From contig NC_092675.1 of NCBI RefSeq assembly GCF_964355755.1, forward strand, positions 9,809,312-9,873,311: a stretch of DNA of 64,000 nt, given 5' to 3'. Positions within the stretch are counted from its first letter, which is position 1. Every line of letters begins with the position of its first letter. This document shows positions 16,501 through 52,580 of this stretch, in pieces. The stretch comes from Antedon mediterranea. Taxonomy: Eukaryota; Echinodermata; Crinoidea; Comatulida; Antedonidae. The translations under genes and the position numbers were made by a program. Below the pieces are notes generated by a model, which had not been told where the DNA came from, ran no database searches, and was given only the letters and a program-made list of their open reading frames with translations.

Positions 16501-19500
16501 ACTCATATATAGGCTAATTATTTTTCTAACCATTCCACCTCTTGTAGGGATGTCCCCTTAATTAATCAAAATCCTAAAAATTATCTAAGGCTAATTTAAA
16601 AGCCTTTTTGAATGAAATTAGTACATATAGGCACATATCTCTCCAAATCGTACACAAATATTTTCTGCTGGTGTTTACAAACAAAATGCTGTTGTATTTT
16701 ACAGTAATTTGTACACTAGATTTTTTTTTTCATCCGCGAAACGTTTTAAAAAATGTTGAAAAAGTACCGTTAAACGATCGTTTAATAGTGCACGCCATGT
16801 GTCCCAATCGTCAAATCAAATTATAGAAATTAATTTAGGTGTTATATAAAATAAATTATGGCCTCGGGCCGAATCGTCTCAGAGCAGAAGCTTCCCGCTA
16901 CCTGCGTATCGCGACGAAAGTACATTTTTAAAGAGATATAAATGTAGGCCTAGACCTACTAATTTAGACCAAAAAAGACATTCAAATTAATTTTAGATCG
17001 TAATGTGATTTTAATTAATTTATTAATTAATGGGAACATCGCTACAAGACGTGGAATCAGTTTTATTTGCCTATCGAAGTTTCGTAATGGTATCGCTGTC
17101 TTTCTAGCCTAGCTTGGACTAGGATTGTTTGCTCGTTTGTTGGCAAACATAATTAACACTACTTTAGGTGTGTTTATAAAATACAAATAAATATAATATG
17201 TAATATATCATATATCGTAAGTCACGTCACTAATAATTACTTTCAGGTGTTATTATAGTGATATTTCTTGAGTTAGTCGAAATTTGCTTATACTTAACTC
17301 TATAGGTAAATAGCTTGTGATAGGGTTGCCATGGCATTTTTCGTATACAAAATAAAGATTTCAATGTTTGAATGTGCCTCTTTGTCAAAGCGGCCCGGTC
17401 TTCCCTAGGCCTATCTTTTATTGAATCTGATTCAATTGACAGGAATCTATTTAGATGTTATATAATAAAAATAATGAATGTTTTATATTCATGGAATGGT
17501 ACGAATAATGTCATTCTGTGAATGATGAAAGGTTAAAATAAATAACAAATAATAGTAAGAATTATAACCATTCATCATTCACTTCATAGCATTATTTGTA
17601 CCATTCCACCACTCATTCATTATAAATAATATCGATTGAATCTAACACGTATAAGCATTCAACTGCATCGAGATCAACATGCATTATCTCCTTATTTTCA
17701 AAATACGGCTGCATCATAAACGACCAATCTTCATTTTGTCAATAGTTTTTGTGACTCTAATATTAACCCTCATGGGTTACTATTAGAGTAGTGGGTTATT
17801 ATTATAGATTGACTTATAAGGTGGGTTACTATTAGAAGAGGGCTTACTACAGAGTGTGGGTTACTATTAGAAGAGGGCTTACTACAGAGTGTGGGTTACT
17901 ATTAGAAGAGGGCTTACTACTAGAGTGTGGGTTACTATTAGAAGAGGGCTTACTACTAGAGTGTGGGTTACTATTAGAAGAGGGCTTACTACTGGAGTGT
18001 GGGTTACTATTAGAAGAGGGCTTACTACTAAAGTGTGCGTTACTATTAGATGAGGGCTTACTAGAGTGTGGGTTAGGCCTACTCTTAGAAGAGGGCTTAC
18101 TACAAGAGTGTGGGTAACTATTAGAAGAGGGCTTACTACTAGAGTGTGGGTTACTATTAGAAGAGGGCTTACTACTAGAGTGTGGGTTACTATTAGAAGA
18201 GGGCTTAGTACTAGAGTGTGGATTACTATTAGAAGAGGGCTTACTACAGAGTGTGGGTTACTATATTAGAAGAGGGCTTACTACTAGAGTGTGGGTTACT
18301 ATTAGAAGAGGGCTTACTACTAGAGTGTGGGTTACTATTAAAAGAGGGCTTACTACTAGTGTGGGTTACTATTAGAAGAGGGCTTACTACTAGAGTGTGG
18401 GTTACTATTAAAAGAGGGCTTACTACTAGAGTGTGGGTTACTATTAAAAGATTGACGGTTTGTATTATCTGTAGTGTTGTATTATTCAAATGGATTGGTG
18501 GTGAAAAAAAAAATGAAAACAAGAACGAACCTTTTCTTTTGTAGTTTATTGTACAACTATGGAAACGCTTATAATGTAGGTCTAGTAAAATAAAACTGTA
18601 AACCTAATACATTATGAAAAACACAGTATCGTTTGAATATGACATACTCTATAGGCCTAAGTACAATCATTAGGGCGCTAATGTAAAGTTTCGTAGGCAA
18701 CTCTTAAAATTACTCAAAATTGTTTCAATGCTTCACCCAACGTAGGCCTACTTACGGGTTGTCTACTGTAAGCATACAATTGTAAAAAAAACAATTGTTT
18801 AGTTTAGGCCTATAACTATTTTTATAATATATAATATATATAAAAAATAAGTAATTCAAATCAGAAATCCATCGCTAGCCTAGCTTCGTGAAAATCATCG
18901 CTACGCCTGGATACATTATGACAAACACAATATCGTTTGAATATGACATACTCTTTATAGTAGGCCTACGTACAATCATTAGGGCGCCAATGTAAAGTTT
19001 CGTAGGCACGGCAACTCTTAAAATTACTCAAAATTGTTTCAATGCTTCATCCAACGTAGGCCTACTTACGGGTTGTCTACAACATCCTGTAAGCATACAA
19101 CTGTAAAAAAGATATTTTTTTAAATTTAGGCCTATAACTATTTTATATATAAAAAATAAGTAATTCAAATCAGAAATCCATCGCTAGCCTAGCATTGTGA
19201 AAATCATCGCTATGCCGGGAATGGAAAAAACAATGAAGGCCATAAACATGTGGAGTACCGTGTGCGCTCGTTCGCCTAGTTGTATTGGTGTTATTTTAAA
19301 ATTTATTTTATAGAAAAATTAAAACCGCTTTAAAATTGAAATCAAAAAATATTTATTTACTACTACATTGTAATATACATAACAGTGATACTTATTATCC
19401 GTTCACCGACTAGCGAGTCTTACAATAACAACTCACTTTCCCTTACTCAAATTATAATATAGATTGAGGATTATTTCAATATTTTTTTTTCTTTTTAGGT

Positions 19501-33594: not shown

Positions 33595-34888
33595 GTAAGT
33601 TGGTTGATTTCTTACATCTTATTTAACCACATAGCATAATATTTCTGTATGCATTAATTAGATTGTAATTTTGATTAAAATTGTTCATCTGGTTTTGGAT
33701 ATTTATGAATTTATATTTCTTTTTGAAAAAGAAACCAGAAGTTACCGAAACTAACCTGCTTGAAATTTTCACTAACTTTTATTTTTCTTTTCGAAAAGAA
33801 TTATAAATTTAAGATAATGATGCTAATAAATGTAACTTAAGATTTTCCACAAATATGCTTGCTACAGTAAGAGACATCAGATACTTTCTTGTCTGGTTTT
33901 ATTTAAACTATAAAATTAAAACTAAGATCAAATGATAACAATAAAACCGCTAAGAAGCTATACACTTTAAACAACTCATCACAACACAGATTTTCTATTA
34001 ATGGAAACGGTAACGCTACATGTTTGTAAATTCATTGAAATTACTTCATTTGGTTTTTATGGTAAAACAATACTAGTAAAGTGCGGTATATCTGGTAGCC
34101 TACATTTTGAAAGTGTTTTTTCATTCCATTATGTTATAACAGACCTTATTGTACTCTCCTATTTCTTCTAAAGAAAATACGGTATAGTAATTGCAGATAT
34201 ATTATTGTTTGATGATATGTTTTCTGAGACAATTCGAATTATATTAACAATTTTCATTGATTTATGTTTCATTTATTTTGTTTTCGTAATTATTTTACAT
34301 ATAAAATGATAACATATAAACAACTCTTTATATACATAACTATACAAAAAAGATACACTAACAAAGACCCATGGACCCATAGGCTGGCAAATATATTAAA
34401 ACTCTTGCAGTAGAAAACGACAGTTTGCATCTGCACATAACCAAAACATTATTAGTGTTTAATTCTTAGTGAGAAACCTTAACTAGATTCTCTGATGGTT
34501 TCTTTGAAATATAACAAAGCATTATTAACAAACATAGTTGACGCACTAATGTGGCCTTGGTAAATTAAGTATCATAATGAGTTAATATAACAAATTTGAA
34601 GCTTCCTGAACAATACCGTATTTAATTAACATTTAATTAGGCTTTTCCAAACATTGGATACAAAACATCTGTAAAAAGTATACTATAACTTCACATTCCC
34701 TCATAGGTGCTGTCATGGTCCGAAGGCGCCAAAATCGGTCACGCCGGACTAGGAAAATTTCGGGTTTCGGGATAATGTGCTCTTGCAACTCATTGTACAT
34801 AACTAATAATATTTATGTCTACTAAAATTGTGTTTAAAAATAAATCACCGATTTTTTTTTTCAGATTTCACTGAAATTTCAACACAAA

Positions 34889-35410
34889 ATGTTCAAAATG
34901 ATGTTTGTTGCGTTGGTAGCAGTAATGGTAGAGGTTACTCTTCCAGCATTAGCTTTATACCACCCCGGACGTTCGTGCTGTCCCAGCTATTGGACATCAT
35001 ACAACAACAACTGCTACAGAATTTTTGGCGAATCTCTAAATTGGCAAGACGCTGAAAATTACTGTCAGCATCAGGGATCTGATGCTCATCTAGTATCTCT
35101 CCACAGCCAAGGCGAATCAGATTTCGTTAAAGATTTTTGGAACACAGCTACCGGAAACAGAGTCACTGAACGGGTCTGGAGAAATATGTACTGGATTGGA
35201 TTGACAGACGCGCATTATGAAGGACATTTCAAGTGGTCTGATGGCAGCGGATATGCCTCTTACAGAAATTTCCACGCTGGTGAACCAAACAACCATAGAG
35301 GAAACCAAGACTGCATTGTAGTGTGGGATTACCAACATAAAAATAAAGGATTGTGGGATGACCAACAGTGCTATAATAAACATCCTTTTATTTGCAAAAT
35401 GAGTCAATAA
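34889..35410 (+). CDS. Secreted C-type lectin (173 aa), intact copy
   Basis: A signal peptide (residues 1-22, ending LPALA) precedes a single long-form carbohydrate-recognition domain. Cysteines at 31/42, 59/169 and 142/161 are placed for the three standard disulfides. WIGL is at 102-105, the EPN mannose-type calcium/sugar motif at 132-134, and WDD at 156-158 where WND is usual. Asp in place of Asn at this calcium ligand may alter affinity. There is no transmembrane segment or other domain, so the product should be a small soluble lectin, like the innate-immunity or coelomic-fluid lectins of echinoderms. The ATG is the first in the exon, 24 bases after the acceptor at 34864. An AATAAA overlaps the stop and another is at 35506. 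The sugar specificity is inferred from EPN only. Confidence 0.92.
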   Translation: MFKMMFVALVAVMVEVTLPALALYHPGRSCCPSYWTSYNNNCYRIFGESLNWQDAENYCQHQGSDAHLVSLHSQGESDFVKDFWNTATGNRVTERVWRNMYWIGLTDAHYEGHFKWSDGSGYASYRNFHAGEPNNHRGNQDCIVVWDYQHKNKGLWDDQQCYNKHPFICKMSQ

Positions 35411-36279
35411 AAAAATACTTGTTTTAAAATCTTAAAACATATCTATTATTACTAGTAATAGTAGTAGTAATTAAAGAAAACTGTTCACATAACTGTTTTA
35501 TTTTAAATAAAATATAATATTCAGTACAAACGTTCGAGTATTCTCCATAACTCGCTAGTGGTATGGAGATCAGAAAGCATTCGTAGTAGTATTTTTATCG
35601 ATACACTTAATCAAGCTCAAGGTTCTGTTTAAATAAATTTAAATTGCATACACGTTGGTCGTGTATTTTGTTATTAATTAAGTAAATATCTAATTAATTA
35701 ACGATTGAATGAATGAATGAATGAAAAATATTATTATTAAAAAATAAATGAGACGGTTTTAATGCTGCATAAGCAGCCGATTATCGTACGGTCCTGTCTC
35801 TAGAACAATAAAGCAAGGTCTAACTGTAATAGTATTAACATACAAATTTCTAGGTGACTATTTAGTTAGTAATTAATAGTTAGTTACAGTCTATCTAGTG
35901 ACAACTGCAGAACCCAGTGAATATTGAACGAGGACTACAATTTCATTCTCTCGTGGTAAGCAATTTCTAATTCAAAATCTCTAACCCAATTTTATGTCAT
36001 AACCTAAGAAAGTCACACTTAATACTTATGAATGTATACAATAAATAAGTATAGCGAATGTCGATAGTGAATGTCTAAGGAAGGATATCAAACAACAGAC
36101 AGTGAGTGCATTGGATGCCATACGATTATGCTCCCACAGGCTTTCTGGTATGGTATCGACTTTGCTTCCACAAAACGTCATTAGAATCTACCGTACGGGC
36201 TAATGTAGCCTATGGCCTACCGTATATGAGCGAATGTGACTGGTAATACAATCCATATATATATATCTGTAAACTTTTT
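35411..36279. other. Lectin 3' flank, duplicated at 43852-44750
   Basis: AT-rich 3' UTR and flank with AATAAA at 35506-35511. No second gene is seen. The region is repeated almost unchanged in copy B. Confidence 0.6.
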
Positions 36280-37481
36280 GATAGCATATCCTGACCCGTA
36301 TGATAAATAACTTTAATAAACAATGAATATGTCTTTGAGAACATCGATGTTCTACCTCTTTCCTTCCGAGTTGGATGCATGGCTAAACTTATTATTGTCA
36401 TCAATAGCAAAGGCAATTGGTTTTCGCTCTTGTAGGCAACAACAACCCAGTCCACACTTTGAACCGTCACAAATTAGTGTGATTTCTTTTTTCACATCGT
36501 AAAATGCAAGGACTGGTGGTAAGATTAACTTTTGCTTTAATCTTTCAAATGAGGTTCCCATTTCCATATGACGTTCTAACGAAGCATCTCTCGTATAGTG
36601 GGGCTGTCATTTCACTGAAGTTGGTGTCTACGAACTTGGACACTTAGTTTAGCATTCCCAAAAAACCTGCTCAGCTCAGTTTGGTTTTCAGGTGGTGGTA
36701 TTTCAACAATTTTTTTTCGGGTCTGGTTTGATTCCATCTAGTTATTAGGTGTCCAACATAAGATACTTGGCTTGTTCTGAATCTACATTTGGACTGGTTC
36801 AGTTTTAGGTTTAGAAGGTCATCCACTATCATTTCGCATGGGTATCCTTCGAAGTGTGTCTCCATTGCCCTTTGGTATACTTCGCTTCCACTGTTTACTC
36901 CGTATGGTAGCCGTAAGTATTTGAATCTTCCTAGTGGAGTGTTAAAACAGGTCAGGTTTGTTGATTCGTCATCGAGTGGAATCTGCCAAAAAGATCGAGT
37001 ACAGTAAAAATCTTTAAATTTGTAAGATTCGTTGTGGCTTGTTTTATTGTACGCATGGGGTGGTGTGGCCTTTTTAAGGCTTTGTTTAGATCACGCGGAT
37101 CGATACATTATTATTATGTCATCAGTGTTTTTCTTTTTGGTTGCAACCATTAAAGAAACCCAATCGGTGGTTTCTTCTACTGGTGTTATGACACCAAGAT
37201 CTGTCATTCTCTTTGGCACACGCCTTGGTGGTCGAATGATTGCTGGTATATCTGGATCAATTTTCATTTTATATTTTAAAGGCAGTTTGCCTAATTTTCT
37301 ATCAAACACTTCTGGAAACTTTGTAATCTCACAAGCTTTAGCATTGGCTAGCTCGTGTACAAAATCATCGTTGATAGTTATGAGGTTCAGTTTCAGTGAG
37401 TCAACAAGTCCAAGAATGGGTGAGCAGTTTTCTTTCAATATGCAGAAGCATGTGTTGTATGTTTCACCAGCGACAGTTATT
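36280..37481 (-). mobile_element. Ty3/gypsy element, copy A: 3' LTR start, RNase H, RT, end of protease region
   Basis: Minus strand. Reading from 37481: ITVAGETYNTCF (protease tail), FDRKLGKLPLKYKM and LGVITPVEETTDWVS (RT start), then METHFEGYPCEMIVDDLL (RT active-site block), a linker, and an RNase H piece with ITLICDGSKCGLG. A purine tract and the LTR start (TAGAACATCGATG) follow at about 36353. Several frameshifts are present. The element stops abruptly at 37481 where the LINE poly(A) begins. The rest exists only in copy B. Confidence 0.8.
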
Positions 37482-38304
37482 TTTTTTTTCTCTTTTGTGG
37501 CGCAAACACCACTTTTATTCACATTCATATTATCTCATATTACATAAAATCGTATTATTTAACTTGTAAATGTTGTTACAGTTCATAATTAACATTTTTA
37601 CATATATGAATTCTGTATTACTCCTTTTTTCATTAATTTTCTTATATTTTGTTATACACTTGACAGGATCATCATTATCATCTATCCCGTTTTAAAATAG
37701 TTCACACATTTTCATTTGTTTGTTTTCATTTTACAACCCGGATTATACAATATATTTATATACATGATAAAAAAAACAATAATAGCTCAGTACCACCAGT
37801 AACCCGTATCACTGTAATTCCTTTTCGGTTAATCGTATCAAATTAGAAATTATATTATCATAATCTTATTTCTTAAAGCTACCCATTTTTCTATACTTGT
37901 TTCTTTATTGTTATATGTTTCACATTCAATGTTATATAACATATTGCTTTTAAATGAATTCCATAAAGATTTACCCACTGGCTTATTTAGTGCAGATAAC
38001 ATTTTTATTCTATAAATAGTAAATGCTGCAAAAGTGTAAATATAATCTATTAGCTTATCTCCCGTTCCTAGTATTAATTGTTTAAATGATATATTATTGT
38101 GATTTAAACTTACAAAGATACTAAGCATTTTCCTCCAATATTTCTGAATAAATCTACAACTAAAAAACAAATGATTTTCATTTTCAATTTCTCAACATTT
38201 GTCACACGTTTGTGTTTCCTTAACTTTCCACTGATACAGCCGTTTGTTGGTAGGCAGTATTCTATGTAACATCTTATAATTGAATTGTGCTAGTTTCTTA
38301 TCTT

Positions 38305-40983
38305 TCATTTTACATACTTTCCGTAACCAAGAGTTTTCCAATCAAAGTTGTTATCATTGAAGTACTCTTCCCATTTTAGTTGTGACATTGGAATAATGAA
38401 ATATTCTTTCACAAACCATGAGTATATTAGTTTGGTAGTATTAATCTCATACTTGGTCCCAACTAATTCATCATTATCATCACAATTGAAAATATCTACC
38501 TCCTTAATAATACGTTTCCATTGAATTGGTATTGCCTTAATAATGCACAAATACTCATTTAACCAGTTTGTTTTACATTGTAGTTTCACCAGTATTTCGT
38601 TTGATGTTAAAAAAGTGTTCTTATTAACAATGTCTTTAATACTGATAATGCCACTGTCAATCCAATGCTTGTAGAAAAGCGATTTTTTTTTAAGTTTAAC
38701 GTAGTGGTTTCCCCACAGTTGCTCATTCATTATATCGTTATAAGTTTCAGGTTTTTTTTTAGAGATTCTGTTATAATTTATGTAGGCTTTTATCATATTT
38801 TTGTAAAACAGTGGAATTTTATCAGAATTAACATCAATAATGTTATAACATGACATATTAAGTAAAACATTAACATCACATATTTTTTTAATATAATACA
38901 TTGGAATATTTTTCCATTTAGCACCATCATCATTCATAATTCTTTTTAACCAGCCACACATGAGTGCGTTAACATGAAGAGTAAAATCAGGCATTTTAAT
39001 GCCTCCCATCTCAATATCACCAATTAGAGTTTTTCTTTTTATCTTTTCCCTTTTATTGTTCCAAATAAAATTATATATTAGATTTGTAACTTGTGTATAT
39101 ACATATTTTGGAACATCAGTGATATTTGCAGCATATGTTAATTTAGATAGTGCAAGACTTTTCAGGATTATTATTCTACCAAAAATTGAGAGATTTCTAG
39201 CATTCCATTGTTTTAAAGTCTTTTCTAGCTCTATTAATTTAACATCCCAGTTTTTTCTGGTACATTCTTCTGTATTATACCCTACATATATGCCTAAAAT
39301 TTTGATCGGGTGTTTTACCCAATTTAATTCTAAAGGTCTATCTATTCTGTTCTTCCATTTACCAATCCAAAAAGCATTGGTTTTTTTTTTATTTAGTGTC
39401 ATTCCAGATACTTCACAAAAACGTTCAATTACACTGACTGCTGACTTAATACTTTTGTCATTACCAACATACAAAACAGTATCATCGGCTAATTGGCTTA
39501 TTCTAGCTTCTATGTTATCTAAAATGAATAACAGAGCAGATAGAGGACAACCTTGTCTAATACCTCTTTCCATTTTAAAATTGTTTGAAACCCAACCATT
39601 GTTAACTGTGACACATTCAACGTTATTGTATAATACTTTTACCCAGTTACATAAGAACATTCCAAAGTTAAACTTTTCTAGAACATTGAACATAAAATCT
39701 CTACTAATAGAGTCAAAAGCCTTCTTAAAATCTATGGTAATTATTGCCCCTTCGATATCATTACACTCTGTATAATAAAGCAGGTCTTCTATTAACCGAA
39801 TGTTTTCACCAGCGAAACGGCCTTTTATATAACCTATTGATTTAATAACCATTTTAAGTCTGTTACTTAAAACATGTGCAAGAATTTTGTAATCGGTGTT
39901 TAAGAGGGTAATGGGACGCCAATTATTCAAATTTTCTTTTTCTCCATCCTTGAACAAAAGGGTGATTACACCTCGTTTTTGCGAAAAGGATAATTCTTGA
40001 GAATTATAACTTTCATTTAACGCATCGCAAATTAAATGTTTAATATTATTCCAAAAGAACACATAAAATTCAACACTTAGACCATCCGATCCAGGTGTTT
40101 TATTTTTTTCCATCATTGAAATGGCCTTTTTACATTCATCAATAGTGACGTAACCTTCACAATTTTCTTTTTCTATTTCTGAAAGCTTGTTTATAATAGA
40201 ATTACAAAGGTATTTATTAATTTTTCCAGGGTTTATAACATTTTTTGCGTATAAACCTTCGAAATGTTGTATTTGTTCCTTTAAAATATCAATTGGGCTC
40301 GTTGCTAAGCTCCCATCTTTAGTAATTAAACTTTTTATGTGTTTCTTTTTACTTTTGGATCTTTCTAACCCAAGAAAGTATTTTGTATTCCGGTCGCCTT
40401 CCTCTATCCATTTTACTCTGGACCTAATTTGCGCGCCTTTTGCTTCTACATTATAAATGTTTTCAAGCTCTATTTTTTTATTTTCAATTTTATTTTCAAT
40501 GGTTATATCACAATTTTGAGTATTCATAATTGTTTCATTTAAGTTTTTTATTTGTTTTTGTAATTTTTCTTTCTTTTTATTCTGGTTTTTATTTTTTTGT
40601 TTTCCGTATGCAATTGAAAAATCTTTTATTTTTGTTTTTACAAGCTCCCATAACAAACTTGCACTTACAGGTTCTCTATTATTTTTTAGTATTGAAACAT
40701 CAATTATTTTAATTACTAATTTTGTAAATGTTTCATCTTTCAGAAAGCTATTGTTGAGCATCCATAAACCAGGACCGCGTATTTTTTCATGCAAATCTAT
40801 TTTAATTGATACCGCCTGGTGATCTGTGAGAATAGCTGGACGAATGTCACAGGCTAAAATATCTCCATTTGAAAAGAGATCTTCTGATATTAACCAGTAA
40901 TCCAGCCTACGGAAAATGTTGTTAAATCTCTTACGCCACGTAAATTGTTGCTTATTCATGTTTTTGGATCTCCAAATAATCAT
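38305..40983 (-). pseudogene. LINE ORF2: endonuclease end, reverse transcriptase and C-terminal region
   Basis: 892 residues open on the minus strand. In order: the endonuclease end (FRRLDYWLISED, TDHQAV), a coiled Lys/Glu-rich linker, and RT blocks NKTPGSDGLSVEFY, NWRPITLLNTDYKILAHVL, IITIDFKKAFDSISRDF, GIRQGCPLSALLFIL and LADDTVLYVGND. After these comes the typical L1/Tx1 post-RT region (WNARNLSIFGRI, LSKLTYAANI). Between LLFIL and LADDT the usual stretch of some 40 residues is missing, so an internal deletion has removed part of the RT palm. The frame is lost at the C-terminal end; the rest (QFNYKMLHRILPTNKRLYQW, CDKC..H..C) continues in another frame to about 37850. Confidence 0.88.
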
Positions 40984-41521
40984 TTAAATTTAAATTTTTC
41001 ATTAGGTTTTTAATCGTAAAAACAGATTTATCAGACCTATTTGCGCTACCTTTTTGGTCAATGTCAGTATTCATGATGCAATTCAGATCTCCACCTAGAA
41101 TGATAGAATTACCCTTCCCTCCACCAAAGTCATTGTAACATTTGTGTATGGTACTAAAGAATGCACTTCTATTTTTGCTTTCATTAGGAGCATAAATATT
41201 TATAATGTCCAATTCCTTTTCATTTATCATTAAATTAAGAAATATATATCTTCCATCAATATCAGTTAACTTTTTAACAATTTTTCATTCAAGACCTTTT
41301 CGTAATAGTATCGACACTCCTCTACTATGTGAATTACCTATACTATGGATCGCTTCACCTTCCCAAACAAAGTTTGATTTATTAATAATCTCATTTGTTA
41401 GATGGGTTTCCTGAAGCAGACATATATCCGCTTTTTGATCTTTTACCCATTGGAATAGCTTATGTTGCTTATTTATATTTCTAGCTCCTCTAACGTTTAG
41501 TGTTATACAATGTAAATTCAT
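40952..41521 (-). pseudogene. LINE ORF2 N-terminus: apurinic endonuclease, frameshifted
   Basis: Two minus-strand frames give LNVRGARNINKQHKLFQW, CLLQETHL (catalytic Glu), GVSILLRKG, then IINIYAPNES and ILGGDLNCIMN (the GDLN motif). These are the AP-endonuclease blocks of L1/Tx1-type ORF2. The frame shifts near 41250 and again near 40970, where it joins the RT frame. Confidence 0.85.
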
Positions 41522-41581
41522 AAGATTAGAGTAAAGAGCTTCCTAGGGAAATTACAATATTTAGAATACATATTATTAAGA

Positions 41582-42750
41582 TTAAATTACTTGTTTTTGT
41601 TTCTCTTTCTTAAACTTCTTTTTTTCAATACTCTTTGTTTTTTCTTCTGTCCTGCCTTCATTTCCGGACTGTTCCTTCAGATCTCTCGCTGCTTTCTTGT
41701 TTGTGCTAACACTTTTACTTTTTTGCATACTTTTTTCAAAGTAGTCAGTTACCTTCTTCTGTTCATGCTCCTCTCTTTCCCCAACTTCCTGCTCCTCTCT
41801 TTTTTCAGCTTTTTGGTACTTTCTTCTCGGTAATTCTTGTTCCTCTCCTTCTTCAACTTCCTCCTCCTCTCTTTCGTCCACTTCCTGCTCTTCTCTCTGC
41901 TCCTCTCTGTCATCATCTTCCTGCTCATTTTGGTTTGTGTGTTGTTCTATAGTGATCACACTTGTTTCTTTCTGCGCATTTTCATCATCTGATGATTCAC
42001 TACTTCCATCAAAACTAAACACTTCATCATGTGTTTCTGTATCAGATTGTACCGTAGCTCTTTTCCCGTAGTGGTTATCGTTAGCATTATTATTTTTTGG
42101 GTTTTCAAAGTTAAAAACCGATTCCCAAACTTTATTAATGTATGCACCAGGTGAACCAGATGATGATACATTATGCGCTTCAACATTACATCTGTCCCTA
42201 GTATGCCCTGGTAAATGACACTTGAAACAGATTATATCAGCTTTGCATTGAAAAGCTTCACTTCCTGACCGTCATGAAAAGCCCGTGCTCTAAAACCATT
42301 TATTATTATCTGTCTTGGTATTGGCGATTTTAGCTTTTCTACAACGACAGCTCTGTCACCGTTTAGCCAGCTGGTTAATTGACCATTAACCCTTATTTTT
42401 AGCCTTGTAACATCTCCTATTGGTTTGCATCCTAGCGCTTTCAACTTGCTAGCAATCTCTACGTCAGCAACCGATATTGGTATATCCTTTATGACTATTC
42501 TCGTTGTTTCCATGTTTGTATGCCAAATAAGGATTTTTGTCATGAATTGTAATATTACAATTCCTAATGTTTAGTCCATTCGTAATTAGTTTCACTCTAT
42601 CATTTCTATTATTTAGATAAATTCGCCATAGGTTCCGTATTTTTTGAACACCGATTATACTTTCTGCAGCAATTATTTTTAGTAGGGCTATACATAGATC
42701 TTCATCTTTGAAAAAGCTTTTTCCTGTTGGTATTTATTAATAACTTCACA
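41582..42750 (-). pseudogene. LINE ORF1: RRM-like region, CCHC knuckle and acidic tail, frameshifted
   Basis: From 42750 downward the minus strand reads IIGVQKIRNLWRIYLNN, then METTRIVIKDIPISVADVEI and INGFRARAFHDGQE. A one-base shift follows, then the knuckle CFKCHLPGHTRDRC, and finally a Glu/Lys-rich low-complexity tail (41582-42022). This matches the layout of Tx1/L1 nucleic-acid-binding ORF1 proteins. The start codon is missing because the element is truncated at 42750. Confidence 0.78.
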
Positions 42751-43329
42751 TTATTTTGTTTTCGTAATTATTTTACATATAAAATTATAACATATAAACA
42801 ACTCTTTATATACATAACTATACAAAAAAGATACAGTAACAAAGACCCATGGACCCATAGGCTGGCAAATATATTAAAACTCTTGCAGTAGAAAACGACA
42901 GTTTGCATCTGAACATAACCAAAACATTATTAGTGTTTAATTCTTAGTGAGAAACCTTAAATAGATTCTCTGATGGTTTCTTTGAAATATAACAAAGCAT
43001 TATTAACAAACATAGTTGATGCACTAATGTGGCCTTGGTAAATTAAGTATCATGATGAGTTAATATAACAAATTTGAATCTTCCTGAACAATACCGTATT
43101 TAATTAACATTTAATTAGGCTTTTCCAAACATTGGATACAAAACATCTGTAAAAAGTATACTATAACTACCAAAATCGGTCACGCCGGACTAGGAAAATT
43201 TCGGGTTTCGGGATAATGTGCTCTTGCAACTCATTGTACATAACCAATACTATTTATGTCTACTAAAATTGTGTTTAAAAATAAATCACCGATTTTTTTT
43301 TTCAGATTTCACTGAAATTTCAACACAAA

Positions 43330-43851
43330 ATGTTCAAAATGATGTTTGTTGTGTTGGTAGCAGTAATGGTAGAGGTTACTCTTCCAGCATTAGCTTCATA
43401 CCACCCCGGACGTTCGTGCTGTCCCAGCTATTAGACATCATACAACAACAACTGCTACAGAATTTTTGGCCAATCTGTAACTTGGCAAGACGCTGAAAAT
43501 TACTGTCAGCATCAGGGATCTGATGCTCATCTAGTATCTCTCCACAGCCAAGGCGAATCAGATTTCGTTAAAGATTTATGGAACACAGCTACCGGAAACA
43601 GAGTCACTGAACGAGTCTGGAGAAATATGTACTGGATTGGATTGACAGACGCGCATTATGAAGGACATTTCAAGTGGTCTGATGGCAGCGGATATGCCTC
43701 TTACAGAAATTTCCACGCTGGTGAACCAAACAACCATAGAGGAAACCAAGACTGCATTGTAGTGTGGGATTACCAACATAAAAATAAAGGATTGTGGGAT
43801 GACCAACAGTGCTATAATAAACATCCTTTTATTTGCAAAATGTGTCAATAA
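43330..43851 (+). pseudogene. C-type lectin copy B, nonsense codon at residue 35, no promoter
   Basis: Same 174-codon frame as the intact gene. Codon 35 is TAG (43432-43434) instead of TGG, cutting the protein just before the recognition domain. The rest stays open to the TAA at 43849-43851, including WIGL, EPN and WDD, so the lesion is young. Other changes include E48Q, L50V, N51T, F83L and S172C. The promoter and non-coding exon 1 lie outside the duplicated segment, and upstream is an antisense LINE. Re-initiation at a downstream ATG (43627) would give only a fragment without a signal peptide. Confidence 0.93.
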
Positions 43852-44750
43852 GAAAATACTTGTTTTAAAATCTTAAAACATATCTATTATTATTATTAGT
43901 AATAGTAGTAGTAATTAAAGAAAACTGTTTACATAACTGTTTCATTTTAAATAAAATATAATATTCAGTACAAAGGAGCATTCTCCATAACTCGCTAGTG
44001 GTATGGAGATGATTAGAAAGCATTCGTTATTTTTATCGATACACTTAATCAAGCTCAAAGTTCTATTTAAATAAATTTAAATTGCATATACGTTGGGCGT
44101 GTATTTTGTTATTAATTAAGTAAATATCTAATCAATTAACGATTGAATGGATGAATGAATGAAAAATATTATTATTAAAAAATAAATGAGACGGTTTTAA
44201 TGCTGCATAGGCAGCCGATTATCGTACGGTCCTGTCTCTAGAACAATAAAGCAAGGTCTAACTGTGTAATAGTATTAATATACAAATTTCTAGGTGACTA
44301 GTTAGTTAGTAATTAATAGTTAGTTACAGTCTATCTAGTGACAACTGCACACCCAGTGAATTTTGAACGAGGACTACAATTTCATTCTCTCGTGGTAAGC
44401 AAATTCAAAATCTCTAACCCAATTTTATGTCATAACCTAAGAAAGTCACACTTAATACTTATGAATATATACAATAAATACGTATAGTGAATGTCGATAG
44501 TGAATGTTTAAGGAAGGATATCAAACAACAGACAGTGAGTGGCACTGGATCAAACATTATTGTTTGGATGCGATACGATTATGCCCCTACAGGTTTTCTG
44601 GTATGGTATCGACTTTGCTTCCACAAAACGTCATTAGAATCTACCGTACGGGCTAATGTAGCCTATGGGCTACCGTATATGAGCGAATGGGACTGGTAAT
44701 ACCAAAACGGCATGCCTACCATCCATATATATATATCTGTAAACTTTTTG

Positions 44751-44826
44751 ATAGCATATCGTGACCCGTATGATAAACAACTTTAATAAACAATGAATAT
44801 GTCTTTGAGAACATCGATGTTCTACA
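44751..44826 (-). repeat. Partial 3' LTR and adjoining polypurine tract
   Basis: The stretch GCATATCGTGACCCGTATGA through AACATCGATGTTCTACA matches the inner part of the 5' LTR at 49580-49659. Just right of it the minus strand reads GGAAGGAAAGA, a polypurine tract, followed by the LTR start TGTAGAACATCG. The outer part of the LTR is diverged or lost. Confidence 0.75.
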
Positions 44827-45089
44827 TCTTTCCTTCCAAGTTGGTAGCTCTTGTAGGCAACCACAACCCAGTCCACACTTTGAACCGTCACAAATTAGTG
44901 TGATTTCTTTTTTCACATCGTAAAATGCAAGGACTGTGGTGAGATTAACTTTTGCTTTAATCTTTCAAATGAGGTTCCCATTTCCATATGACGTCCTGAC
45001 GAAGCAGCTCTCGTATAGTGGGGCTGTCATTTCACTGACGTTGATGTCTACGAACTTGGACAGATAGTTTAGCATTCCGAAAAACCTGC

Positions 45090-45790
45090 TCAGCTCAGTT
45101 TGGTTTTCAGGTGGTGGTATTTCAACAATTTTTTTTCGGGTCTGGTTTGATTCCATCTAGTTATTAGGTGTCCAACATAAGATACTTGGCTTGTTCTGAA
45201 TCTACATTTGGACTGGTTCAGTTTTAGGTTTAGAAGGTCATCCACTATCATTTCGCATGGGTATCCTTCGAAGTGTGTCTCCATTGCCCTTTGGTATACT
45301 TCGCTTCCACTGTTTACTCCGTATGGTAGCCGTAAGTTGAATCTTCCCAGTGGAGTGTTAAAACAGGTAAGGTTTGTTGATTCGTCATCGAGTGGAATCT
45401 GCCAAAAAGAGTTTTTAGCATCGAGCACAGTAACAATCTTACAATTTGCAAGATTCATTGTGGCTTGTTTTATTGTAGGCCTACACATGGGATGGTGTGG
45501 TCTTTTAAAGGCTTTGTTTAGATCACGGGGATCGATAGATAATCTTATTATTATGTCATCAGTGTTTTTCTTTTTGGTTGCAACCATTAAAGAAACCCAA
45601 TCGGTGGCTTCTTCTACTGGTGTTATGACACCAAGATCTGTCATTCTCTTTGGCACACGCCTTGGTGTTCGAATGATTGGTGGTATATCTGGGTAAATTT
45701 TCATTTTATATTTTAAATGCAGTTTGCCTAATTTTCTATCAAACACTTGGAAACTTTGTAATCTCACAAGCTTCACCATTGGCTAGCTCG
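45090..45790 (-). pseudogene. Gypsy reverse transcriptase region (copy B)
   Basis: Open minus-strand frame with FDRKLGKLHLKYKM, PRRVPKRMTDLGVITPVEE, LSIDPRDLNKAFKRPHHP, VTVLDAKNSFWQIPLD, FNTPLGRFNLRLPYGVNSG, and the active-site block reading IVDDLL. These are the ordered RT blocks of Ty3/gypsy pol. A linker and RNase H lie downstream in other frames. The matching region of copy A has an internal deletion near 36990-37110. Confidence 0.85.
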
Positions 45791-45916
45791 TGTACAAAAT
45801 CATCGTTGATAGTTATGAGGTTCAGTTTCAATGAGTCTTAAAGTCCAAGAATGGATGAGCAGTTTTCTTTCAATATGTAGAAGCTTGTGCTGTATGTTTC
45901 ACCAGCTACAGTTATT

Positions 45917-46125
45917 GGTAGCTTTATTTATCCCATTGTATGAATAATTGTACCACCGAAAGCTCTTAGGCGGGCACGCTTTGTACTGAGTGTCAATTGC
46001 AGCTTCTTGTTCAATACCTTGTACCATGTGATATGGTAAGACATTACACTTTGCACCTGTGTCTAACTTTAAAGTTAGAGGTTTGCTGCATGTGGTTACG
46101 TTAACCTTGATATCATTTGCCTTAT
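45917..46125 (-). pseudogene. Gypsy aspartic protease fragment
   Basis: The minus strand reads VTTCSKPLTLKLDTGAKCNV, holding the DTGA catalytic loop of a retrotransposon protease, then a flap-like segment in another frame. The 5' side is cut by the repeat inserted at about 46126. Confidence 0.7.
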
Positions 46126-47080
46126 TTACCTCCGCCAAGGAGGCATATGTAATCGGTAGCGGGTGTTTGTTTGTTTGTTATCAGGATTACTCAAAAAGTA
46201 ATTACAAGATCTTCACCAAAATATATAATATACAGATAGATATGTGGTCAAGGACCATTCCATTACATTTTTGGACCATGGTCCCAATTCTGGACCACTT
46301 TTTAGTATACTTTTCCGACCTGCTAGTGTTAAAAGGTAGGACAGAATTTTTCAAAAGATGGCGAGCAGTCTTAAAGTAACAAGTAAACTGAAATTGCATT
46401 TTCTCGAGAACTACTTGTCCAAAAAACTTCATTTTTGTACAAGAGGCAAGAGTTATAATTTGTTATTTGTAATTTTGAAACATAATTTGATTGAATTTGC
46501 ACGTTTTTTGATGCGAGTAGTTTAAAAAACCAAATTCACTCGTTTGATTTTCGCGTTGCTGTTCTATTGTTAGTCAACTGAAGCTATTGTTAATTGAAAG
46601 GCTTGTTACATTACATCAAACTCGCATACAACACATGCTTGTAGTGAAATTAGCCTAAATCACAAACAGCATTATGACACACACAAATATATATATATTA
46701 TAAATAATAAAAATAGTGCTGTTCCGCCGTACCACGCCGAGAATGTTAAAGAGTCGCTATCCAATCGAGTTCGAACAATACCATGAAAGCCCCAGTGGTC
46801 TAATGGTTAGGACATCTGCATATCAAGCAGGCGGTCCGAGTTCGAGTCTCGGTTGGGGCGACTTTTTCTCATTCTCACAGATTTCCTCGTCTTTATCGTT
46901 TCAAACTAATTAATTAAATTTCAGTATATCACCGGGCGGTTTAGAATTAATGTTCTTTGCCTGATTTGTTTATATTATAAATCATTATATATATATATTT
47001 TTTTTTTTTACCGGAGAAATCTTATGTAGGAGAATTTTACAGTAGGCGAAGTTATGCACTCTCGGTGTGGCTTTCAAGTT
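46126..47080. mobile_element. CCTCCGCC-ended repeat (MITE-like), carrying a tRNA-bearing insertion
   Basis: Begins TTACCTCCGCCAAGGAGG and ends near GTAGGCGAAGTTATGCACTC, an imperfect inverted terminus. The body contains GTTTGTTTGTTATCAGGATT, GGACCATGGTCCCAATTCTG and CTCGAGAACTACTTGTCC, all repeated at 51234-52580. It splits the gypsy protease region. Compared with the other copy, about 330 extra bases (about 46700-47020) include the tRNA-like gene. Confidence 0.8.
46789..46860 (+). tRNA. tRNA-like gene, full cloverleaf, anticodon ATC (would decode Asp GAU)
   Basis: 72 nt. The 7-bp acceptor stem pairs GCCCCAG with TTGGGGC (last pair G:T). The D stem is GTC/GAC, the anticodon stem TCTGC/GCAGG with 7-nt loop ATATCAA, and the T arm CCGAG-TTCGAGT-CTCGG. 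The discriminator is G. A TTTTT terminator follows at 46863-46867. T33 is in place and the anticodon at 46822-46824 is ATC. The D-arm sequence (TGGTCTAATGGTTAGGA) is most like eukaryotic tRNA-Glu, so a T34-to-A change from TTC may explain it. It sits inside a mobile repeat, so it may be a pseudogene or a SINE head rather than a working tRNA. Confidence 0.7.
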
Positions 47081-47444: not shown

Positions 47445-48865
47445 CAGTGGTGGCGCCAGCGGGGGGGCTACGGGGGCTCTAGCCCCCTCGTCGGGGAGCC
47501 TAGCCCCCCCGTCGGGGAACACGGGTACTTTTTGTCGGGGAATATAATATACAGTAAAAAACGTTCGCGTTCACTTCATATAGCTTCAGCGCCTAGAAAA
47601 CCACGACGTTCCATTGACCGTGAGAGTACGTCAGAGGGCTATTATGCACTTTTATGCATTCATTATTGCCAGAGATCTAACTACTAAACAATAGCTAGTA
47701 CGCACTTGTTTGGCGGTATCCCTTTGTACGAATCGTTCACCGTTGGGTCGAGATGCGTGATATCATGTTCCATCCAGGGACCAAAATGTGTAATGTAGTT
47801 ATTTTCCAGGCGAAGTTTACCGACGGTTACCGAAGGGAACACGGGTACTTTTTGTCGGGGAATATAATATACAGTACAGTAAAAAACGTTCGCGTTCATT
47901 TGGTAGCTTCAGCGCCTAGAAAACCGCGACGTTTCATTGACATTGAGAGTACGTCAGAGTGCTATTATGCAATTTATATGCATTCATTATTGCCAGCGAT
48001 CTAACTTACTACTAAACATTAGCTAGGTACGCACTTGTCTGGCGGTATCCCTTTGTACGAATCGTTCAACGTTGGGTCGAGACGCGTGATATCAAGTTCC
48101 ATCCAGGGACCAAAATGTGTAATGTAGTTATTTTCCAGGCGAAGTTTACCGACGGTTCGGGTACTTTTTGTCGGGGAATATAATTCGTTCGCGTTCACTT
48201 CGTAGCTTCAGCGCCTAGAAAACCTCGACGTTTCATTGACCGTGAGAGTACGGCAGAGTGATATTATGCACTTTATATGCATTCATTATTGCCAGCGATC
48301 TAACTTACTACTAAACAATAGCTATAGGTACGCACTTGTCTGGCGGTATCCCTTTGTACGAATCGTTCAACGTTGGGTCGTGATATCATGTTCCATCCAG
48401 GGACCAAAATGTGTACTGTAGTTATTTTCCAGGCGAAGTTTACCGACGGTTACGTCGTGTACTGTGTCGACGTACGCTACACTACAGCAAAAACGAATTA
48501 TGTTAATTGTTCGTATGTTCACCAATTTTTTAATTCACAAGTAACCTTCTGTACCGTGGGGCACCTAAAATAAATATTTCATCCATTACTAAACAAAAAA
48601 ACATGCCATTTTCGCTTAGCCAACATCTTATTATAGCTAAGTTATTAAATTTTCAATGTCCTGTATGTCATGAATTTCTCACCACCCGGAAGTCCAGATG
48701 GTACGCAGGCATACACTTGGGAGGAATAAACTTATTTCCCTGGACCCCCACCGAGGGCCCTTGGCGGCCCCCTGGCCTCCAGCCTTGTGATGCTCGCTTC
48801 GCTCGCATAGCCCCCTCGTCGGGGAATGTAGCCCCCGCGTCGGGAAGATCCTGGCGCCACCCCTG
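47445..48865. mobile_element. hAT-type non-autonomous DNA transposon with 8-bp TSD
   Basis: The left terminus CAGTGGTGGCGCCAG and right terminus CTGGCGCCACCCCTG match as inverted repeats at 14 of 15 bases. CAGTGGCC flanks both ends (47437-47444 and 48866-48873), an 8-bp target duplication typical of hAT. Inside are GC-rich CCCCCTCGTCGGGG blocks near each end and about three copies of a 320-bp unit (from about 47516, 47835 and 48155). There is no transposase frame. Confidence 0.92.
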
Positions 48866-51240: not shown

Positions 51241-52580
51241 CGCCAAGGAGGTATATATGTAATCGATCGCGTGTGTTTGTTACTTGGCCAAATTGAAAAT
51301 TGGCCAAGTATGTTGATTGGTGCGGTTTGTGTGTGGGTGTGTTTGTTTGTTTGTCATCACTCTAGCGCACACAATTTTGATTCGAATGACTCCAAATTAC
51401 TACCATACATGTCACCTGGTGCAAGGACGACACTGCCCAATTTTGGTGAAAATCCGGACCACGGTCCCAATTCTGGACCACTTTTAAAAATTATTTTCAG
51501 ACCTGCTAGTGTTAAAAGATAGGACAGAATTTTCAAAAGCCGGTGAGCAGTCTTAAATTAACAAGTAAACTAAAATTGCATTTTCTCGAGAACTACTTGT
51601 CCAAAAAACCTCATTTTTGTACAAGAGGCAAGAGCTATAATTTGTGATTTGTAATTTTAAAACATAATTTGATTTAATATACAGGCTTTTTGATGCGAAT
51701 AGTTTAAAAAACCTATTTCTTTTCATATTCACCCGTGTGTGTTTCGCGTTGCTGTTCTATTGTTAGTCGACTGAAACTATTGTTAATTGAAAGGCTTGTT
51801 ACATAACCGTTACACCAAACTCGTATACACATGATAGTAGTGGATTTAGCCTAAATCACACAGCATAAGACACACACTTTTGGTGAAAATCGGGTCATGG
51901 TTATTAGGCCAATTTTGATTTGGCCAAGTATCGCGCTATGCGCGAAGGCTAGTTTGTCTGTCTGTTTGTTTGTTTGTTAGCAGGATTACTCAAAAAGTAA
52001 TTACAAGGTCTTAACCAAAATGAATGTACAGATAGATATGTGGTCAAGGACCATTCCATTAAAATTTGGGACCATTTCGGACCACGGTCCCAATTCTGGA
52101 CCACTTTTTAGTATACTTTTCAGACCTGCTAGTGTTAAAAGATTTTATTCAAGAAAATTTTTCAAAAGCCGGCGAGCAGTCTTAAAGTAACAAGTAAACT
52201 GTAATTGCATTTTCTCGAAAACTACTTGTCCAAAAAACTTCATTTTTGTACAAGAGGCAAGAGTTATAATTTCTGATTTGTAATTTTGAAACATAATTTT
52301 ATTTAATGTGCACGTTTTTTGATGCGAGTAGTTTAAAAAAACCTATTTCTTTTCAAAGTCACTCGTTTGATTTTCGCGTTGCTGTTCTATTGTTAGCCAA
52401 TGAAGCTATTGTTAATTGTTGAAAGGCTTGTTACATAACCATTACACCAAACTCGCATACACATGCTTGTATTTAAATTAGCCTAAATCAGACCCACACA
52501 AATATATATATATATATAATCTTATGTAGGAGAATTTTACAGTAGGCGGAGGTATGCACTCTCGGAGTGGCTTTCTAGTT
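51234..52580. mobile_element. CCTCCGCC-ended MITE-like composite with internally duplicated body
   Basis: TACCTCCGCC near the left end and GGCGGAGGTA (about 52545-52554) near the right form exact 10-bp inverted termini. The body appears twice. At about 51430-51845 and 52065-52495, both modules carry CCCAATTCTGGACCACTTTT, CTCGAGAACTACTTGTCC (with one change in the second) and AAAGGCTTGTTACATAACC. Between them lies a TTGGCCAAGTAT module that also opens the first unit. A simpler relative is at 46126-47080. Confidence 0.75.

Follow-up and report, generated by a model that had tools for sequence, protein, structure and literature searches.

A 3.2-kb direct repeat on both sides of an L1-type LINE in the crinoid Antedon mediterranea, a possible outcome of a single integration

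The target-site duplications (TSDs) of L1-clade elements peak at lengths of 13-15 bp (PMC4245944). In tumours, one L1 event made a somatic tandem duplication of 22.6 Mb, attributed to the joining of the cDNA to a break on the sister chromatid, and L1-mediated deletions without TSDs have also been described (PMC7058536). The LINE analysed here lies in a window of 64,000 nucleotides, which is the whole stretch of DNA under study, from the crinoid Antedon mediterranea. It resembles ordinary L1-clade insertions (PMC4245944) in its endonuclease-reverse transcriptase, its poly(A), its 5' truncation, its TT/(A,G) nick and the TSDs of 11-25 bp found at most members of its family, while it differs from them in that its own direct repeats measure 3.2 kb. 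Like the tumour duplication (PMC7058536), it is a case of one LINE placed where two tandem copies meet; it is set apart by its size of 3.2 kb, its presence in a reference genome and the existence of shorter cases in the same family. With L1-mediated target-site deletions (PMC7058536) it has in common the lack of an ordinary TSD and a non-standard 5' junction; however, target DNA was gained in the window, unless a deletion took out an older tandem junction. The locus is thus placed among known events, as a germline case of kilobase size, and does not represent a new kind.

Self-comparison of the window and base-level alignment, by which both edges were mapped, confirmed what the first-pass annotation had proposed: one pair of long direct repeats, copies A and B, surrounds the LINE (Table 1). 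The alignment comprises 3100 columns with 96 substitutions (3.1%) and 18 indels. The assembly to which the window belongs (354 Mb in 18 contigs, eleven of them large) was searched for further copies, and A and B are the only two found that contain the complete segment; no mitochondrial COX1 was found in this assembly. The lectin coding exon, here an intact C-type lectin ORF, and the part of a gypsy element that had been described as its content were both found in copy A. Other tandem or local direct repeats were seen in the self-comparison at 17774-18451, 47515-48453 and 51455-52490.

Table 1. Position of the LINE, the two copies of the duplicated segment and the features that they contain, numbered from the first nucleotide of the window.
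Feature	Position	Strand	Description	Basis
Dispersed ~300-bp repeat	34268..34606	.	Its end falls 5-6 bp beyond the A/B homology	
Copy A	34273..37481	+	Dispersed-repeat end, intact C-type lectin ORF, gypsy fragment	Self-comparison, alignment
Lectin ORF, copy A	34889..35410	+	Intact, 173 aa	Pfam Lectin_C 2.4e-21
gypsy pol fragment in A	36407..37481	-	Cut at 37481 by the LINE	
L1-type LINE	37482..42735	-	Poly(A) at the left (3') end; truncated at the 5' end; private deletion of 72 bp at 39518/39519	
15 extra nucleotides ATTAATAACTTCACA	42736..42750	.	Between LINE 5' end and copy B; family copies have GATCAGCC here	
Copy B	42751..45916	+		Self-comparison, alignment
Lectin pseudogene, copy B	43330..43851	+	W35 to stop	
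gypsy fragment in B and right flank	44849..46126	-	Unoccupied LINE target CAGTTATT/GGTAGC at 45916/45917	

The flanks of the two copies are distributed as had been claimed, the original left flank with A and the original right flank with B. At its left edge, copy A continues into the end of a dispersed repeat of about 300 bp (consensus TTCATT), as eight other copies of that repeat do, and copy B has no exact match to this end. At the other edge, the gypsy element extends in B beyond 45916, as in other gypsy copies, and stops in A at the LINE. Since the gypsy sequence is unbroken across 45916 in B and broken in A, the right flank of B represents the intact, LINE-free site. When the changes in the gypsy part (1051 sites) were polarised with outgroup gypsy copies, 21 were assigned to A and 21 to B. 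The sequence TTATT is common to both ends of the 3.2-kb segment (chance about 0.0015).

The LINE was classified as L1-type by its predicted apurinic-type endonuclease and reverse transcriptase (Exo_endo_phos, 1.8e-6; RVT_1, 5.6e-27), with an ORF2 that matches human LINE-1 ORF2p at 2e-53. A poly(A) 3' end and variable 5' truncation are found across its multicopy family, for which we obtained 686 candidates with the whole element as query and 386 with the 3' end. The reported 5' truncation and poly(A) were verified, and the 5' end is 370 bp short of full-length family copies. The start given for the element also stood, while its end had to be moved from 42750 to 42735, where the family copies continue with a different sequence. 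It follows the nick context of its family at the 3' junction, TT/(A or G). Three family copies (C5:7668751, C3:16519620 and C1:31075660) all begin matching at query base 335, which suggests a 3' end variant of the family.

The claim that the copies abut both LINE ends was confirmed with one correction: the right end of A, CAGTTATT, lies directly against the poly(T) of the LINE, and B begins 15 extra bases past the truncated 5' end. Together with the next TT, these bases are unique in the genome; extra 5' bases were found at other family members too. Eleven of the 15, with the following TT, match positions 34685-34697 (13 bases; p about 0.004, post hoc). Copy B lacks at 43168 a stretch of 37 bp (34691-34727 in A), exactly where the extra bases match, and the gap and the extra bases are possibly linked by template switching.

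To place these junctions within the behaviour of the family, TSDs were surveyed at about 30 of the approximately 386 candidate 3' ends, and 21 insertions other than that of the window were resolved at both ends; some short TSDs were read by eye from the flanks where the script had missed them, e.g., at L024 and L028. Ordinary TSDs of 11-25 bp were present at 18 of the 21 (13 and 5 in two rounds), with a nick context that is mostly TT/A and sometimes TT/G, and the flanks of control insertions with short TSDs have no homology. The remaining three carry long direct repeats that abut both LINE ends: 356 bp, identical, at L041; 245-247 bp, 98.4% identical, at L040; and 125 bp, identical, at L036/L047, a case slightly less secure because it lies inside a high-copy repeat. 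In these three the repeats are as young as their LINEs (0.14% vs 0.13% per branch). Such long duplications are therefore a behaviour of the family, of which the 3.2-kb segment would be the extreme case. At the LINE ends of the window no ordinary TSD of 11-25 bp was found, and direct repeats abut both ends and the unoccupied site is known, with the 15 extra bases on the 5' side. A later, exact landing of the LINE with an ordinary TSD was rejected, since only repeats of 5-7 bp (TTATT/TTATTTT) occur at its ends, outside the range of the 18 others.

Several family copies seemed at first to lack a TSD and were checked: other high-copy repeats interrupt C9:20931 and C4:15010, C1:23319 is not truncated at that point, L022 runs into another LINE-like sequence, and L090 is interrupted. 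At L044 (C6:24203921-24206417), the LINE is flanked by a direct repeat of 1.06 kb with 97.7% identity that does not reach its ends; a second copy of this locus was found some 28.5 kb away. Two family members (C6:20352988-20359504 and C10:20305659-20310100) lie in the same high-copy, near-identical host repeat: the flanks of L047 and L078 jointly match dozens of loci, with a spacing of about 190 bp.

Had A and B been identical when the LINE inserted, the divergence of each would be expected to equal that of the LINE, in which 27 of 5248 compared sites carry private substitutions (0.51%). Over the whole segment, the per-branch divergence of A and B is 1.55% (p=5e-8), three times that of the LINE, which counts against a giant TSD made simply by two nicks in a single molecule. 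The divergence is not uniform (changepoint permutation p=0.008) and rises away from the LINE along copy B: the left 1.13 kb differs by 1.8% with one indel, an age compatible with that of the LINE (p=0.08), and the right 1.97 kb differs by 3.9% with 17 indels, fourfold the LINE age and not compatible with it (p=3e-10). Copy B has the LINE on its left, so exchange of its right part through a crossover with a LINE-free chromosome would produce the observed pattern. One such crossover, or capture of the homologue, would explain the non-uniform divergence, and needs allelic differences of roughly 2-4%; the mismatch in age would also follow from a tandem duplication that predates a LINE inserted at its junction. 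We initially took the mismatch as disproof of a giant TSD, a view abandoned in the light of the long repeats elsewhere in the family and of the uneven divergence.

The lectin ORFs of A and B differ by 8 nonsynonymous or nonsense changes and 1 synonymous change, a ratio that looks more like long neutral decay than allelic variation. No intron interrupts the coding part of the lectin in A, whereas a split near residue 61 is present in several paralogues; the gene in A may have arisen as a retrocopy or through intron loss.

The first-pass annotation attributed the structure to one integration with nicks 3.2 kb apart, and we give a single, integration-coupled duplication of the segment an even chance of being correct. 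In this reading the LINE integrated inside the gypsy fragment, at CAGTTATT/GG, through target-primed reverse transcription, as the poly(A) junction and the target left intact in B show. The 5' end of its cDNA would then have been joined, with the 15 extra bases in between, to a second break at a distance of 3.2 kb rather than some 14 bp, so that the DNA between the breaks became duplicated on both sides of the LINE. The route may have been through widely staggered nicks or through joining of the cDNA to a break on the sister or homologous chromatid, and later recombination between B and LINE-free haplotypes, or involvement of the homologue from the start, may have raised the divergence of the right part. 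We favour a single event because the family makes long abutting duplications, no short TSD is present and the age of the left block agrees. The original claim is partly supported: the repeats of 125-356 bp in the family, the TT/(A or G) context and the lack of a TSD of 11-25 bp all fit it, but its implication that the copies are as old as the LINE agrees with the left block and not with the right; given the threefold per-branch excess, recombination with a LINE-free allele or use of the homologue must be added. Also counting against a single integration are the TTATT at both segment ends, which it does not predict, the 8:1 ratio in the lectin, and the size of the next longest TSD in the survey, 356 bp, a ninth of that in the window.

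The argument that a later LINE at an existing breakpoint would be a coincidence is not watertight. The same abutment results, with no coincidence involved, if the LINE inserts with a target deletion that spans an older tandem junction, or if a rearrangement breakpoint falls inside the LINE. The main rival, which we consider unlikely yet worth serious attention, accordingly has two steps: an older tandem duplication of 3.2 kb or more, and then a younger LINE at or near its junction, with the junction lost by a target-site or later deletion. It explains more directly why the LINE is younger than the A-B divergence and why the lectin pseudogene in B has decayed, as it would over a long existence as a dead copy; the derived changes in the gypsy parts are evenly split, TTATT at both ends resembles the microhomology of a tandem junction, and the lack of an ordinary TSD is shared with L1-mediated deletions (PMC7058536). 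Against it, the LINE would have had to hit the junction to the base, or a deletion would have had to span it by chance; extra gene conversion is required for the non-uniform divergence, and the long TSDs of the family make a single event likelier beforehand. We regard as improbable an unequal exchange between homologues, in which the LINE inserted normally at the segment end and a break in its 5' part was joined to the start of the segment on a LINE-free homologue, A and B being alleles. With the break inside the LINE, homology must stop at the LINE on both sides and no coincidence is needed; the older A-B divergence, the absence of a TSD, the match of the extra bases inside the segment and the missing 370 bp are explained as well. 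Yet this class of event is rare, the long abutting repeats at other family members are left unexplained, and the lectin ratio is unlike that of two functional alleles. The weights of these three leading readings are a matter of judgement and not of calculation.

Two other explanations carry far less weight. An assembly error that joined two haplotypes would fit the extent of the A-B divergence, which is in the range of allelic differences in diverse species. Yet a normal LINE insertion, in whichever haplotype, could not create the junction of LINE, 15 bases and copy B, which must therefore represent DNA that was actually read, and we consider such an error very improbable. A classical ectopic exchange, in which two LINEs of the same family, one per edge on different homologues, merged into a hybrid LINE, is barely credible: the 3' part of the LINE has fewer private substitutions than the 5' part (5/2037 vs 22/3211, p=0.03), but the difference in rate is only marginal and two polymorphic insertions in the same orientation, 3.2 kb apart, are required.

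As a tentative generalisation that we hold with some doubt, this germline L1-type family may join its 5' ends in a manner loosely tied to the first nick, with a heavy-tailed distribution of target duplications from 11 bp to kilobases and single insertions able to duplicate whole genes. Under a single integration, the locus would show a trap for age comparisons: kilobase target duplications can recombine with empty alleles, and their divergence therefore does not date the insertion. If the single integration is right, LINE integration would itself be a source of germline gene duplications of kilobase size, and the family would offer a natural series (125, 247, 356 and 3200 bp) for studying the choice of the second strand.
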